IMG/VR virus record: IMGVR_UViG_3300028844_002915
Span: 1 to 41,444 of that record
From: a virus
Reading direction: 5' to 3' (one strand)
DNA length: 41,444 nucleotides
Below are positions 4,958 to 34,561 of the stretch, piece after piece. The position numbers and the translations under genes were made by a program. Position 1 is the first letter of the stretch. Every line of letters begins with the position of its first letter. The notes beneath the pieces are model-generated. The model saw only the letters and a program-made list of their open reading frames with translations, was not told where the DNA came from and made no database searches.

Positions 4958-5583
4958 GATTTCTAGAAATAGCAGGTTCTAAGCAGCGGGGTTTGAATTG
5001 GGATGCTGTGCGTGATGTAAAGATGCCCGGAGTTATGGTATACGATATGCGTGACCTTCCCATGAAGGGCGTAAAGGATAAGACGTATAACGGTGTTTAC
5101 AACGAACATTTTATTGAACACTTGACCAAAGAAGAAGGTATCAACTTTCTAAAAGAAATGCTTCGTGTAATGAAACCCTTTGGTACTATCAGAACCATTT
5201 GGCCTCCAATGGAGTTTGTAGAGTGGTTACGGCAAGAAGAAGATCTTGATAATCATCCATGGGTGCAGCACTATTATAACTTCTATGTTGTAAAGCATAA
5301 GTTTGCGCCTAAAGGTACAGAGTTTATGCGTATGCAAGATCAATGCGCTGAAGGTATTATGTGGCAAGGCGGTGAACATAAACATATTTGGGGTAAGCAG
5401 GAACTTATTGACACTATGAAAGAAATAGGATATATTAATGTAAGAGAAAAAAAATATCAAGAAAGTGGGTTACCTGCATTTAAAAACATTGATACAGCAG
5501 GTGATATTAGAGCATTTCATTCTGCAGTCATAGAAGCACAATCTCCTGCAGAACAGAAAAGACAAATGGAACTAGACTTGTGA
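4954..5583 (+). CDS. SAM-dependent methyltransferase
   Basis: 209 residues. The N-terminus RFLEIAGSKQRG lacks a classical GxGxG. The centre is a clear methyltransferase type 11 block: VYNEHFIEHLTKEEGINFLKEMLRVMKPFGTIRTIWPP. This block of acidic strand, EH..EHL and 'LRVLKPGG'-like turn is diagnostic. Such proteins methylate sugars in O-antigen clusters. ATG overlaps the previous stop by 4 bases, and the next gene starts GTGA over this stop. Confidence 0.65.
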   Translation: MRFLEIAGSKQRGLNWDAVRDVKMPGVMVYDMRDLPMKGVKDKTYNGVYNEHFIEHLTKEEGINFLKEMLRVMKPFGTIRTIWPPMEFVEWLRQEEDLDNHPWVQHYYNFYVVKHKFAPKGTEFMRMQDQCAEGIMWQGGEHKHIWGKQELIDTMKEIGYINVREKKYQESGLPAFKNIDTAGDIRAFHSAVIEAQSPAEQKRQMELDL

Positions 5584-7060: not shown

Positions 7061-7917
7061 TGAGAATTTTAGTTACAGGAGCAACAGGATATGTTGGTGC
7101 TCATTTTGTAAAGGTTGCTGCAGAGGCAGGTCATACCATTGTTGCGACAGACTATAATCTTGAACAGAATGATTTAAAAAAATACTGTGCGAAGATTGTA
7201 GAGTGGGATATTCGTAAACCCATATCAAATAAAATAGTGGGTGTAGATAAGATTGTTCATATTGCAGCACGAACTAAAGTTCCAAACTCTGTAAAAGATC
7301 CTTATGATTATTACTTGACAAATGTAGTTGGAACTAAGAACGTGATTGATGCAGCGCCATGTAATCATTTTGTATACTGTTCTACAGGAAGTGCGTTTAA
7401 TCCTGCTAGTAATCCTTACGCAGGATCTAAGCATGCAGGTGAACTTGTAGCAAAACAGTTTAACGATAAGTGTAGCCTAGTTAGGTTTTACAATGTTAGC
7501 GGAAATGATGGAATGCAAAAGTATGATGATGAGTATAGTCATCTAATACGTAGGGCAGCAGCAGTTGTGAATGGTAAGTTTGATAAACTGTATATCCATG
7601 GAACCGATTTTGACACTAGAGATGGCACATGCATAAGAAACTACACTCATGTTAAAGACATAGTAGACTCTCTCCTGAGGATTACTGAGAATGATCCAAC
7701 TAATGAGATTGACTGTCTAGGATCTCCTGAGGGATACTCTGTAAAAGAGGTTATAGATACTATGGCTAATGTATCTAGAGCGAACTTTGAAGTAGTTGAA
7801 GGTCCAAGAAGAGATGGTGATATTGCAGTGTCAACTGTTCCGATAAAATCCAAATACTTTGAACAAAAAAAATCACTTGAAGATATGTGTATTGACGCTA
7901 TAAAATACGAGGTATAA
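7060..7917 (+). CDS. NAD-dependent epimerase/dehydratase (GalE-like)
   Basis: About 285 residues. An N-terminal Rossmann motif RILVTGATGYVGAHFVK (GxxGxxG) binds NAD(P). VDKIVHIAARTKVPNSVKDPYDYYLTNVVGTKNVIDA, the catalytic YCSTGSAF Ser-Thr region, NPYAGSKHAGE (YxxxK) and GTCIRNYTHVKDIVDSLL follow. The last segment is the 'RDYIHV.D' block of UDP-glucose 4-epimerases. It most likely interconverts nucleotide sugars for the surrounding glycosyltransferases. Length is close to, though slightly below, the roughly 310-340 residues usual for the family. Start ATG 7060 overlaps the previous stop. Confidence 0.85.
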   Translation: MRILVTGATGYVGAHFVKVAAEAGHTIVATDYNLEQNDLKKYCAKIVEWDIRKPISNKIVGVDKIVHIAARTKVPNSVKDPYDYYLTNVVGTKNVIDAAPCNHFVYCSTGSAFNPASNPYAGSKHAGELVAKQFNDKCSLVRFYNVSGNDGMQKYDDEYSHLIRRAAAVVNGKFDKLYIHGTDFDTRDGTCIRNYTHVKDIVDSLLRITENDPTNEIDCLGSPEGYSVKEVIDTMANVSRANFEVVEGPRRDGDIAVSTVPIKSKYFEQKKSLEDMCIDAIKYEV

Positions 7918-13349: not shown

Positions 13350-13366
13350 CAGCCCTCTTTTTTTTA
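13338..13366 (+). terminator. Rho-independent terminator
   Basis: Stem AAAGAGGG (13338-13345), loop TTAACAG, then CCCTCTTT (13353-13360) followed directly by a T run. It closes the transcript from promoter 12336 and insulates the next promoter cassette at 13380. Confidence 0.85.
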
Positions 13367-27846: not shown

Positions 27847-27876
27847 AAGGATGATCAGAAATGGTCATCCTTTTTT
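27847..27876 (+). terminator. Rho-independent terminator of gene 32
   Basis: Stem AAGGATGATC (27847-27856), loop AGAAAT, GGTCATCCTT (27863-27872), then T run to 27876. It stops gene 32 transcription just at the 3' end of the convergent minus-strand tape-measure gene. It is weak in the minus direction because no T run lies on that side. Confidence 0.85.
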
Positions 27877-29677
27877 AATAAAAACCATACGAATCTATCA
27901 TTTGTTTCTTTAGTGTCCTTTTATCTATGGCACTCATTCCATATGAACCATCAGCACCTGCATGTGGATTCCTATTAGAAACTGAAGTGGTATCACCAGA
28001 GTTTGTAGAGGCATCAACGTTGTTTATAATAACCATTTGTCCGTTCTTTGCCAACTCTGCAGACGATCCTAATGTACCACCTCTTAGGGTATTCAAGGCA
28101 TTTATCGCAGAGGCCAAAGAGTCAGCCGCACCAAAGCCTTCTTTACCAAATTTCTCAGCTTCTAGTTTAGTTAAAATACCATCAGCATTAGTATCGGCTT
28201 CTAATATTTGTTTTATCAAACCCTTTTGTCTTGCTAGATTGGCGGCATCTTCTTTAGTCGAATCTGTTCCTAATCCCAAACTATCCTTCAACCAATCAGG
28301 TAGCATGGCTGTAATAGACGTAGTTAAGTCGGATGCTATTTGACTAATATTCGGTAAAAACCCTGTAAGAAAATTCCAGAAGTCTGTTACCCAACCAGTG
28401 ATTGTTTCTCTTAGGTTAAACTTAGGGGCATCACCCTCTTTCCACCCAAACGCTTCAAGGGCAAAATCAACAACGGTATTGATAGGGAACCATAAAATGT
28501 CTAGTATACCCTTTCCTGCACCTAGCAATCCTTCCCAAAGTTCACCTAAAGCTGCTGTTGGATCTGAGAATAGAAGTTTAACCCACTCTATGGCACCTTC
28601 AACAACACCAAAGATTCCACTGGTTATCTTTTTTATAGTCTCTTCGAAACTAAAGCTCTCTAGTTGCTTCACGATCCAACCGGCCATACCTTGACCTTCT
28701 TTCACCTTACCATCAGCATCAGTTTCCACCCCAAAGAGCTTTTTGATTACCCATGAGATACCTTGCTTTAGCAAATCGAATGGAGCACCAATCAATGAAC
28801 CTAAGAAACCACCAACACCATCTCCTAGTTTTGCTATGAACCCATCTGCATCAGACTCTTGATATGCTTTTACACCATCAAATAAACTTATAACAAATCC
28901 AACAGGCCAAAGAATCTTTGAGAATAATGCACCAAACTTTCCACCAAATTGTGCCAAGGTTTTTAAGAAAGCCCCTGCCTTACTAGTAGCAAACTTGGCT
29001 ACACCTTCTGAAACAGCAACAAGTGGTCTTAAGAGTCTACCGACTTGAAATGTTGCCCTGCCAATAATGTTCTTTTTAAATAAACTATCATCACCTTTAA
29101 CTGCTAACAACTTACCATCTGCACCAAGACCAAATACATTAAGTGCTCTTATTCTAAGAGCATTCATTCTCATTCTAATTTGTTCAGTTATAGGAGGTGC
29201 TTTGTAAAAACCGCTACGTCCTTCTCCCCTTATAAGCAATCCTTCTGCAGTAAGTCCAAACAAACCAAGTGTAGCATTTCGTAATCTTATCATACCGTTT
29301 GATATTGTCAGTGGTACTTTTACCATACCATTTATCTTCTTAATGGCGTTAAGTTCCCATCCTCTCAAACCACTCAATGCAGCAGCAGTCGCTGCAATAC
29401 CTGCTGTGAGAGGCAATAGCATCCCTGCTATACCACCCAAACTACCTAAACCCAACCCCTTACTAGCAGATTTAGTAGAAGGAGATGCCGCTCTAGCTTC
29501 TCCTTTAGCCTTTGCAGCTTCTCTACGATCCTCTTCCTGATCTTTCATTTGTCTTTTTAAGAACTTGAAATGATCTTCCATGGTCTTGTTAAGTTTGTCT
29601 ACAGCATCAGTCGTTTCGTCTTGAGATCTGTTGTTCTCAACTAATGCTTTAACAAGTTTGTCAAAATTATCTGCCAT
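27875..29677 (-). CDS. Tape-measure / baseplate hub protein (gp29-like)
   Basis: 600 residues, close to T4 gp29 (590). The N-terminal coiled coil (KLNKTMEDHFKFLKRQMKDQ) is followed by a Gly/Ala-rich hydrophobic region and several long hydrophobic helices, for example ILWPVGFVISLFDGVKAY and IGAPFDLLKQGISWVIKKLF. This is the tape-measure composition. A canonical EF-hand loop, DTNADGILTKLE (residues 495-506), lies near the C-terminus. The protein would set tail length and act as hub or injection factor. It starts at 29677, and the frame upstream is the short ORF at 29667-29864. Confidence 0.75.
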   Translation of the reverse strand: MADNFDKLVKALVENNRSQDETTDAVDKLNKTMEDHFKFLKRQMKDQEEDRREAAKAKGEARAASPSTKSASKGLGLGSLGGIAGMLLPLTAGIAATAAALSGLRGWELNAIKKINGMVKVPLTISNGMIRLRNATLGLFGLTAEGLLIRGEGRSGFYKAPPITEQIRMRMNALRIRALNVFGLGADGKLLAVKGDDSLFKKNIIGRATFQVGRLLRPLVAVSEGVAKFATSKAGAFLKTLAQFGGKFGALFSKILWPVGFVISLFDGVKAYQESDADGFIAKLGDGVGGFLGSLIGAPFDLLKQGISWVIKKLFGVETDADGKVKEGQGMAGWIVKQLESFSFEETIKKITSGIFGVVEGAIEWVKLLFSDPTAALGELWEGLLGAGKGILDILWFPINTVVDFALEAFGWKEGDAPKFNLRETITGWVTDFWNFLTGFLPNISQIASDLTTSITAMLPDWLKDSLGLGTDSTKEDAANLARQKGLIKQILEADTNADGILTKLEAEKFGKEGFGAADSLASAINALNTLRGGTLGSSAELAKNGQMVIINNVDASTNSGDTTSVSNRNPHAGADGSYGMSAIDKRTLKKQMIDSYGFY

Positions 29678-29864
29678 TGCTCATCTTCTGCCTTTCAGCT
29701 TCTCTTCTTTGTTCTTCTATTTGATCGATCAACATAGCTAAGTAGATTTCTCTTTCCCAAGGCATCATATTTTCAACATCATCTAAAGAGTAGTTATGAT
29801 TCTGTATCAACTGAAAATTAACTTGATAGTAGTTCACCAAGTTATCATGGGAAAGAGATACTAA
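29667..29864 (-). CDS. Tail-chaperone extension ORF, likely -1 frameshift from gene 26
   Basis: An open frame of 65 codons on the minus strand, which ends TAA (29667-29669), 11 bases into the tape-measure gene. There is no ATG before MMPWEREIYLAMLIDQIEE; TTG 29840 and GTG 29837 are possible weak starts without SD. The frame begins exactly one base behind the frame of gene 26 at its stop, which is set in eight T residues. A -1 slip would fuse LVSLSHDNLVNYYQVNFQLI onto gp26. It precedes the tape-measure gene, as the lambda T part of G-T does. Confidence 0.6.
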   Translation of the reverse strand, partial: LVSLSHDNLVNYYQVNFQLIQNHNYSLDDVENMMPWEREIYLAMLIDQIEEQRREAERQKMSNGR

Positions 29865-30568
29865 AAAAAATCATTCATACCTTTCAAAACCAACTCATTT
29901 TTCTTTTGACACCCAACACATTCATATGACGCATCATAGGTCACTTGTGGCATGGTCTCAATAAACTTCCTAATCATATCAAACTGTTCAGAACTCAAAG
30001 ACTCTATAAACTCCATCTGAGAACTATAACTTTCATCCTTAAATGGCATATTTTCATCTTCAGTCATAACAGATTCAATACATTTTAAAATCATAGCAAA
30101 TGTTTGTTCTGTATTAGACTTCACATCAAGACTAGCCAAATCCATAATACTAAGGTATGTCGGATACTGCATCCTAATACTAATATCGTTGTTTAACTTT
30201 ATAACATAATCAACATCAGGCATATCCAAAGTTATATCATCAAGAATAATCTTTACTTCATTTTCTGCTTCACAATGTTCACACTTAGGTTTGAGTTCTA
30301 TATTTTCTCCTACCGACTTAGATCTGATTTTGACGAACATATATTCAACATCAAAACTAGTCAGTGCTTTTTTGCTTATTGGTTCTTCGACACAAGCTTC
30401 AATAGTATCTGCAATAGCATTGAAGACCTGTGTTTGATCCTCACTCTCCATTGCTAACATCAAGACCTTCTCTTCTTTTACGAGATATGGTCTAAATCTA
30501 ACTGCCTGTTGTGACGAAGGTATAACAAGTTCATATTTTGGTTTATCATTTAGTTTAGGTAGTGCCAT
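29861..30568 (-). CDS. gp26: gp26-like baseplate hub / tail assembly chaperone
   Basis: 235 residues. The T4-like gp26 layout is seen: KYELVIPSSQQAVRFRPYLV, EEKVLMLAMESEDQTQVFNA, TSFDVEYMFVKIRSKSVGEN. Two CxxC pairs (CEHC and CVGC) form a zinc ribbon across the protein. DMIRKFIETMPQVTYDASYE precedes the end. The hub subunit gp26 of T4 works in hub assembly. Here its C-terminal frame runs to a poly-T stop, as in frameshifting tail chaperones. It lies directly before the tape-measure gene. Confidence 0.8.
   Translation of the reverse strand: MALPKLNDKPKYELVIPSSQQAVRFRPYLVKEEKVLMLAMESEDQTQVFNAIADTIEACVEEPISKKALTSFDVEYMFVKIRSKSVGENIELKPKCEHCEAENEVKIILDDITLDMPDVDYVIKLNNDISIRMQYPTYLSIMDLASLDVKSNTEQTFAMILKCIESVMTEDENMPFKDESYSSQMEFIESLSSEQFDMIRKFIETMPQVTYDASYECVGCQKKNELVLKGMNDFF
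29863..29870 (-). promoter_or_regulatory. Slippery TTTTTTTT at gene 26 stop
   Basis: Gene 26 ends ...GAT TTT TTT TAG on the minus strand. The eight T residues form a TTTTTTT heptamer of the X XXY YYZ type. Slipping one base back reads TTA GTA TCT into the downstream frame. Confidence 0.6.
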
Positions 30569-30580
30569 TCATTTCATCCT

Positions 30581-31300
30581 TTAATTAAATACTCTTCCTA
30601 TTGCTGTTCCTATTTGAGTTGTCAAAAACTTTTCTATATTACTTGTAGCTTCAACTTCATTTGGAATCCATTTTGTATATGACATCTGCACATTCAACTC
30701 CACGACACCATCAACATCATTGTTCAACTGAATGTCGTTCATGGTGGTAGGGAATGCATCAAACAACGTACACGAATATATTACATCATCACCTGTTACA
30801 AAGTCCAAGTCGAACTGACCTTGTGCGAGATCAATAGGACCAAACTTAGGTAATCTATTCTGTATTTCTGATGGTAGTTTAGGAATGCCAAGAGGTGTGG
30901 AGTAGACAGGAAGACCAATACCTTTCTTCAACTGTTCAATCACAATCTGCTTCCCATACCCTTCTTTGCCCCTGAGATATCCTGCTGTCTGACCATCCTG
31001 ATCTACAGCAAGACTTTGCCAAGTATCAAAGTACTTTCGGATACCATAATCATTTAGAACTTGAAAAGTCATGGAAATGTCTGTAACGGCATACCCATAA
31101 GGAACCTTTTGCATTTGCATACCAATCCTGCGTTCATTCGTCAGAACCTGCTTACCGGGCAATATAACGTCCTTACAGAGCAAGTTTACTTCTTCGGAGG
31201 TAGCACCAGGGATTGTTGGTAGCTTAACCCTGAATACATTCGGACTTGCTATACCATCTTTTCTAGACACTAAGCTTTTTAATTGATCGACACTAGCCAT
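30581..31300 (-). CDS. gp19/gp54-type tail-tube-fold protein
   Basis: 239 residues. RVKLPTIPGATSEEVNLLCK, then VLTNERRIGMQMQKVPYGYA, DISMTFQVLNDYGIRKYFDT and SYTKWIPNEVEATS near the C-terminus. This is the T4 tail tube fold (PF06841), shared by gp19, gp48 and gp54. The length (239) and position among baseplate genes favour the tail-tube initiator gp54 rather than the tube gp19. It overlaps the next gene by one base. Expression is probably from the late promoter upstream of 31884. Confidence 0.65.
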   Translation of the reverse strand: MASVDQLKSLVSRKDGIASPNVFRVKLPTIPGATSEEVNLLCKDVILPGKQVLTNERRIGMQMQKVPYGYAVTDISMTFQVLNDYGIRKYFDTWQSLAVDQDGQTAGYLRGKEGYGKQIVIEQLKKGIGLPVYSTPLGIPKLPSEIQNRLPKFGPIDLAQGQFDLDFVTGDDVIYSCTLFDAFPTTMNDIQLNNDVDGVVELNVQMSYTKWIPNEVEATSNIEKFLTTQIGTAIGRVFN

Positions 31301-33502: not shown

Positions 33503-34561
33503 ATGTCATTTTTTAGAAACTTTCCCACAGTGGCTTATAACTTTGGTAATGAGACATTTGATACTACGTTCCACAACCTTACGACTTATATTGATCTCAT
33601 CGATCAAATAGCTGATGATGCGTCCTTCTATGAAAAGTATTATATTCAAGATGGTCAAAGACCTGATGTTCTTTCATATGAGTTATATGGAACCTCTGAC
33701 TTTTATTGGACGTTTTTCTTATTGAACTCTGATCTTCGTAAGCAAGGCTGGCCCATGAGTAGTCTAGAGGTTTATGATGCTGCAAAGCTTTTTTATCCTA
33801 ATAGAGTAATTAATACCACGGCACGAATGCATGGAGAGTTTTATATCGGTGACACTATTGCTGATAGATCTGATCTTGATGAGTTTGGAACAGCATTTAA
33901 GGCTAAAATATTAGAGAAGAACTATGATCTTGGTCAACTTACAGTTAAACCTATTGTTGATGTTAAGTCAATAACACTGACTAATGGGGGCAGTGGTTAC
34001 ACGTCTCCACCCACAGTAACCATATCGGGTGGCGGTGGTAAGGGTGCAACTGCGCAAGCAATTATGACCTATCTTGATGGAGATACTATACTTACTTCTC
34101 AAACAATACAATCAATAGCTGTATTGACAGGTGGTGAAGAGTTTACTAGTGCTCCAACAATAACCATATCAGAACCAAATATTGCAAATGGAACACAGGC
34201 AACAGCAACTGCACAAATATCTTCTTTCACGCTACCTAATAGTACCACTATTTTCACGCAACCGAATCAGCCCAATGTATTGTTGTGGGATGATGATCTA
34301 GTCAGAAGTCTTATTACTTCTAATAGTACTTTGCAATATAATGCTGCTGCATATTATACTGACACTGATCAAAATATCGTTGATTTAAATATTAACGTTA
34401 GTGGTGGTGTTAATAACGAAGTTGGACAACTTAATAAAATACCTGTCACATATCTAGATAGGCTGATAGACACAAACAATGAACTACGAAACATTAATAT
34501 ATTTACGCCAAGTGTTGCAGCACAGGTAAGCAGTGAATTTCAAAAACTATTGAGAAGTTAA
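33503..34561 (+). CDS. gp53: gp53 baseplate wedge with inserted repeats
   Basis: 352 residues, against 196 in T4. The first 120 residues are gp53-like: FFRNFPTVAYNFGNETFDTT, RPDVLSYELYGTSDFYWTFF and NSDLRKQGWPMSSLEVYDAA. An inserted region (about residues 150-250) has two related beta repeats, LTNGGSGYTSPPTVTISGGG and LTGGEEFTSAPTITISEP. The final part returns to a wedge-like end (YLDRLIDTNNELRNINIFTP). It joins wedges in the baseplate. The insert may be exposed on the surface. Confidence 0.8.
   Translation: MSFFRNFPTVAYNFGNETFDTTFHNLTTYIDLIDQIADDASFYEKYYIQDGQRPDVLSYELYGTSDFYWTFFLLNSDLRKQGWPMSSLEVYDAAKLFYPNRVINTTARMHGEFYIGDTIADRSDLDEFGTAFKAKILEKNYDLGQLTVKPIVDVKSITLTNGGSGYTSPPTVTISGGGGKGATAQAIMTYLDGDTILTSQTIQSIAVLTGGEEFTSAPTITISEPNIANGTQATATAQISSFTLPNSTTIFTQPNQPNVLLWDDDLVRSLITSNSTLQYNAAAYYTDTDQNIVDLNINVSGGVNNEVGQLNKIPVTYLDRLIDTNNELRNINIFTPSVAAQVSSEFQKLLRS

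Follow-up and report, generated by a model that had tools for sequence, protein, structure and literature searches.

A T4-like tail assembly chaperone gene with a conserved poly-T site predicted to direct −1 frameshifting

How might a phage make a protein whose reading frame has no evident start of its own? This question is raised by a short frame that lies between gene 26, a tail assembly chaperone gene, and the presumed tape measure gene of a virus, IMG/VR record IMGVR_UViG_3300028844_002915, of which we analysed positions 1 to 41,444 (41,444 nucleotides (nt), hereafter the window). An earlier note, made from the letters of the window without database searches, had proposed that a −1 slip on a poly-T run links gene 26 to this frame, that the order of the genes is the G/G-T arrangement of lambda-type tails, and that the short product is a conserved protein. 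The sequence, the homology of the two parts, their −1 relation and the conservation of both a slippery heptamer and the extension frame bear on this proposal, and from them we conclude that gene 26 and the extension, a domain of the T4 gp51 family, very probably constitute a single G/GT-type tail assembly chaperone gene with −1 programmed frameshifting.

The junction and the identity of the extension

The 3′ end of gene 26 on the minus strand reads GA-TTTTTTTT-AG, in codons AAT GAT TTT TTT TAG, with a run of eight T (T8) at 29870..29863 (Table 1). The letters are as the earlier note gave them: a −1 slip leads to TTA GTA TCT and into a 65-codon frame (peptide LVSLSHDN...SNGR) that closes just inside the next gene. 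The junction peptide across the slip is NDFFLVSLSHDN, and the +1 frame at the same site is closed after 5 codons. Most ribosomes would stop at TAG and release the short gp26, while a minority, pausing on U_UUU_UUU with the stop codon next, would slip back by one base, re-pair both Phe-tRNAs to UUU and add 65 further codons to yield a gp26–gp51 fusion. Runs of eight identical bases occur four times in 41 kilobases (kb), the others being a T8 at 13358-13365 and A8 runs at 5447-5454 and 7865-7872, so that a T8 by itself is not rare; what sets the junction run beyond chance is that practically all relatives share its placement, the −1 relation and the heptamer.

The extension matches phrog_634, the T4 gp51 family described as 'baseplate hub assembly catalyst' (E value of 2e-25), and it also matches positions 231-276 of phrog_150 (E value of 7e-9), the gene 26 family, whose profile has a length of 282. 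The phrog_150 match of T4 gp26 (208 amino acids (aa)) ends at position 235, whereas T4 gp51 (249 aa) has a full-length match to phrog_150 and, with residues 147-246, a match to phrog_634. These match spans identify T4 gp26 and gp51 as paralogues, the first short and the second long, both homologous to the window proteins, with gp51 a natural single open reading frame in which the short form and the extension domain are already joined. By the same comparison, one gene in the window appears to encode both forms, with the junction at the same point as in T4 gp51.

T4 itself, as the earlier note stated, is not known to use a frameshift, since its short and long forms are encoded by separate paralogous genes. 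Whereas the window has one gene and a −1 shift, these two T4 genes are divergently transcribed and lack a slippery site, T4 gene 26 reading GAG TTC TTT GAG at the corresponding spot. The T4 arrangement is also found in Shewanella phage Thanatos-2 and Aeromonas phage avDM5. We found neither this two-gene arrangement nor a second copy of gene 26 or 51 in the record to which the window belongs, which has 55,128 bases and may be incomplete. In a tree of 26 and 51 proteins the T4-type 26s cluster together, as do the 51s, and the tree does not date the duplication.

At the structural level, the AlphaFold model of gp26 (mean predicted local distance difference test score of 88) gives a hint of a chaperone fold like that of the HK97 tail assembly chaperone 2ob9_A, which Foldseek retrieves with a probability of 0.96 and a target template modelling score of 0.55, but with an E value of 0.28. 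A structure search with the extension model returned nothing significant, and sequence matches of the extension in the PDB to HIV gp41 (best E value of 0.017) were discarded as they look like chance matches between coiled coils.

Conservation of the heptamer and the extension frame

We gathered 337 sequences from contig scans and phage records by their similarity to gene 26, not by the heptamer motif; scans with KVP40 or Cr30 as a single query found just 2 loci each. A readable gene 26 stop is present in 324 of the 337 and the gp51 domain is detectable in 319, the contigs of the 5 others ending 30-63 nt past that stop. In every locus where the two parts are separate frames (318 of 318) the gp51 domain lies in the −1 frame, and the 319th is T4, where the parts are fused. 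Dereplication left 176 loci, 173 of which are in our parsimony tree, and in 175 of these 176 gene 26 has T_TTT_TTN in X_XXY_YYZ register, with 0-2 codons between the heptamer and the stop. Thus, the comparison with relatives that the earlier note had suggested as a check supports both the poly-T and the −1 relation.

The six bases ahead of Z are fixed in these heptamers, and Z itself is C in 131, T in 37, G in 6 and A in 1, which is the pattern expected of a ribosomal −1 site. The codon before the two Phe codons varies among GAT, AGT, AAT, TCT and GCT (D, N, S or A) with an invariant last T, and the first Phe codon is always TTT even though TTC makes up 25% of Phe codons elsewhere. Counted by parsimony over the three codon positions, there are 31/33/0 changes in the codon before the Phe pair, 0/0/0 in the first Phe codon (P-site) and 0/0/12 in the second (A-site), against a mean of 49.5 for the 222 third positions of gene 26; the next lowest third position has 10, and one other has possibly 0, unless this is the site itself counted at the edge. 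Within the class to which the window belongs the corresponding counts are 4/5/0, 0/0/0 and 0/0/6 against a third-position mean of 14.3, and as other third positions there go down to 0, 1 or 2 changes, the evidence of the class by itself carries less weight than that of the family.

The extension is conserved in the manner of a coding frame, with 19/9/40 changes by codon position over its whole length on the family tree and 4.9/1.9/9.4 in its first eight codons within the window class, most of which lie upstream of any candidate start. This coding-type pattern, present from the first codon, suggests translation of the frame beginning at the slip. The idea that the extension is an unexpressed, decaying remnant of gene 51 is accordingly barely credible: the frame has no start codon and in this phage is known from sequence alone, but it is under strong in-frame purifying selection across the family, and neither gene 26 nor gene 51 has a second copy in the 55-kb record.

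If the extension is expressed, it could instead be a small gp51 that is started on its own, or by termination and reinitiation near the gene 26 stop. In agreement with the earlier note, which saw no ATG or Shine–Dalgarno (SD) motif near the start of the frame, the −1 frame has no ATG ahead of the conserved YY motif, and its earliest candidates are TTG at 29840 and GTG at 29837, which follow a pyrimidine-rich leader without an SD. Their anti-SD energy is +0.6 kcal/mol, while for four of five neighbouring starts it is −4.0 to −5.8 and for the fifth, that of gp2, +0.4. Moreover, 23 of the 47 window-class loci, among them the close relatives L005 and L024, have no ATG, GTG or TTG in the −1 frame ahead of the YY motif, some of these start-less loci being relatives at 66-75% identity. 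Databases do list separate small gp51 genes in relatives, and stop–start overlaps of the type TAATG or TGATG occur in KVP40, Cr30, Ps15, phiM12 and Atu_ph04, where reinitiation could add some free gp51, but all of these phages retain the heptamer. With coding constraint on residues upstream of the TTG as well, and the domain fused to gp26 in both T4 gp51 and the phrog_150 profile, independent initiation is highly improbable. The earlier note had named homologues with a separate ATG and SD and no slippery run, or with a gapped poly-T, as the finding that would speak against it, and what the relatives carry favours the frameshift.

The records of relatives are of interest in their own right. At the overlaps (L089, L084, L085, L083 and L088) the heptamer is immediately followed by an ATG in the −1 frame. 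Several deposited gp51 calls begin at a later start codon, which cuts off the conserved N-terminal part (L076:2283-2387, L094:2289-2381 and L086:2768-2890), probably as an annotation artefact from ignoring the frameshift, and a gp51 call is absent altogether from the records of S-CAM4 (L095), VmeM-32 (L092) and Atu_ph04 (L088).

Stimulators around the heptamer and the case for slippage

The relatives fall into more than one site design. In the cyanophage type (122 dereplicated loci) the heptamer TTTTTTC is followed by one sense codon and then the stop, and a hairpin begins about 5-6 nt past the heptamer (z of −2.95, with 84% of loci below −1.5), while folding windows that begin at least 15 nt further on show none. 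In a subgroup of 31 such loci an 11-base-pair stem pairs in 92% of cells and includes compensatory changes, with U-A, G-C and A-U at one pair. Consensus folding of the mixed cyanophage sites gave nothing, apparently because there are two subgroups with different stem registers; the loci with a strong hairpin include L096-L173 and similar ones, and a second subgroup, L180-L257, uses a different register.

Upstream, SD-like motifs lie 8-11 nt ahead of the heptamer in most relatives, with GAGG at 10 nt in 72 of 175 loci, and at the codon concerned GAG outnumbers GAA by 64 to 11 against a background of 28% GAG. The length of the SD run does not separate from synonymous shuffles (4.13 versus 4.01), whereas hybridisation energy and the GAG:GAA bias do separate from synonymous expectation. 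The cyanophage-type relatives therefore have the same layout as the Escherichia coli dnaX signal, in which an SD-like motif about 10 nt upstream, a heptamer and a hairpin about 5-6 nt downstream are combined.

The window belongs to a second class of 47 loci, where the stop directly follows the heptamer. Unlike dnaX, it combines the heptamer with a weak AAAGG and a hairpin that, although predicted in the window itself, is not conserved; the anti-SD energy of the class is −5.8, compared to a synonymous expectation of −4.9 and −1.0 gene-wide, a weaker SD-like signal than in the cyanophage type. Here we infer that the adjacent stop codon may supply the pause. One chaperone family may then drive the same −1 shift in two ways, by an SD-like motif and hairpin in the cyanophage type and by T6N and a stop-driven pause without a hairpin in the window type, an idea we offer tentatively and hold at somewhat less than even chances.

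We infer slippage in vivo and its rate from the sequence, and the roles in assembly by analogy. Several points weigh against programmed frameshifting in the window. The window class has no conserved downstream hairpin (z of about −0.5 and no consensus fold), and no strong stimulator was identified in it. The tape measure label of the 600-aa gene, which is presumed, is not confirmed by its sequence. The distant Serratia phage Kevin has the −1 relation but lacks the heptamer, its junction reading CAG GTT TTC ATC TAA (L090:3220-3262), so that Ackermannviridae would use either another slippery site or some other mechanism. Finally, the T8 of the window and its nearest relatives could permit slippage in transcription, whereby RNA polymerase adds one U and the resulting U9 mRNA is translated normally into the same frame, the same residues and thus the same fusion.

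Transcriptional slippage nevertheless seems very unlikely. What the family conserves is T6N, mostly T6C, rather than a long homopolymer of about 9 or more, the window having T8. Of the 49 loci whose stop lies at the heptamer or next to it, 16 have T6C, T6G or T6A, runs that are too short for a polymerase to slip on efficiently, and the fixed bases track the X_XXY_YYZ codon frame, for which a polymerase has no need. Ribosomal −1 frameshifting accounts for this register as well as for the freedom of the last base.

Setting in the tail module and meaning for T4-like phages

The order tail tube, chaperone, extension and 600-aa gene in the window matches V-G-T-H of lambda, where G and GT, as predicted for the window, are a short chaperone and a minor −1 extended form. 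In both, the chaperone gene follows the tail tube gene and precedes the tape measure gene, which in the window is presumed; this is the G/G-T arrangement that the earlier note proposed. Family searches turned up no sequence similarity of the window proteins to lambda-type chaperones, and the slippery site differs, being GGGAAAG in lambda and poly-T in the window. By analogy with lambda G/GT, gp26 would coat the tape measure protein, and tail tube subunits would be brought in by the domain that the fusion gains; the roles of the lambda products are reviewed in PMC5009743.

Table 1 Features at the junction and neighbouring genes of the window.
Feature	Position	Strand	Details
Gene 26, short tail assembly chaperone	29861..30568	minus	235 aa; ends NDFF-stop; PF12322 E 5e-59; phrog_150 E 1e-63
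Slippery heptamer T_TTT_TTT	29870..29864, inside T8	minus	stop TAG 29863-29861 immediately after
−1 frame extension, 65 codons, gp51 C-terminal domain	29864..29670	minus	first codon TTA re-reads base 29864; phrog_634, phrog_150
TAA stop of −1 frame	29669..29667	minus	11 nt within next gene, whose start is 29677
SD-like AAAGG	29880..29884	minus	9 nt upstream of heptamer; possible weak stimulator
Tail tube protein gene	30581..31300	minus	directly upstream of gene 26; phrog_45 E 3e-32
600-aa gene, presumed tape measure protein	27875..29677	minus	directly downstream; position and length alone

The 600-aa gene had no convincing match in family searches, and BLASTP against its counterparts in Cr30 and KVP40 found none. 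In several relatives the presumed tape measure gene, which comes directly after the gp51 frame, carries a peptidase or endolysin annotation (L076:2391-3705, L093:1702-3147 and L094:2381-3693); unlike these, the window gene has no peptidase or endolysin match in the family searches. Elsewhere in the window, residues ~154-284 of a gp53-like baseplate wedge protein (33503-34561, plus strand) have matches in other phage proteins, in their tail fibre and wedge repeat regions, which suggests an added domain.

A 2016 review described G/GT frameshifting as widely conserved 'except T4' (PMC5009743). According to papers that cite it, the study of Vladimirov, Gautam and Davidson (Virology 2022;566:9-15) later identified T4-like chaperone genes (PMC10885494, PMC12846349); the PRFect paper takes from it that some T4-like phages carry a short gene and a fused long gene (PMC10885494), and the paper on phage Adele names it as the source for −1 signals of the poly-T kind in the chaperone genes of T4-like phages (PMC12846349). 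The motif given for Pseudomonas phage Adele is GTTTTT (PMC12846349), as opposed to T_TTT_TTN here. As these citing papers present it, a frameshifted T4-like chaperone is not new in kind, a similar signal having already been reported for T4-like phages, whereas the range of relatives surveyed and the pair of site designs, cyanophage type and window type, may be.

The T4 exception is confined to a subset, namely T4 and close kin with separate short and long genes, and the other T4-superfamily phages that we examined, which comprise cyanophages, KVP40-like phages, alphaproteobacterial phages and the marine lineage of the window, keep the −1 arrangement. Public records that list a small 'gp51' gene probably have the wrong gene model, in that the frame should be joined to gene 26, and the natural variants of the site provide a set for testing what a slippery site requires. 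If the two ways of driving the shift are real, they would, with the two-gene version of T4, amount to three solutions to one protein-ratio problem.
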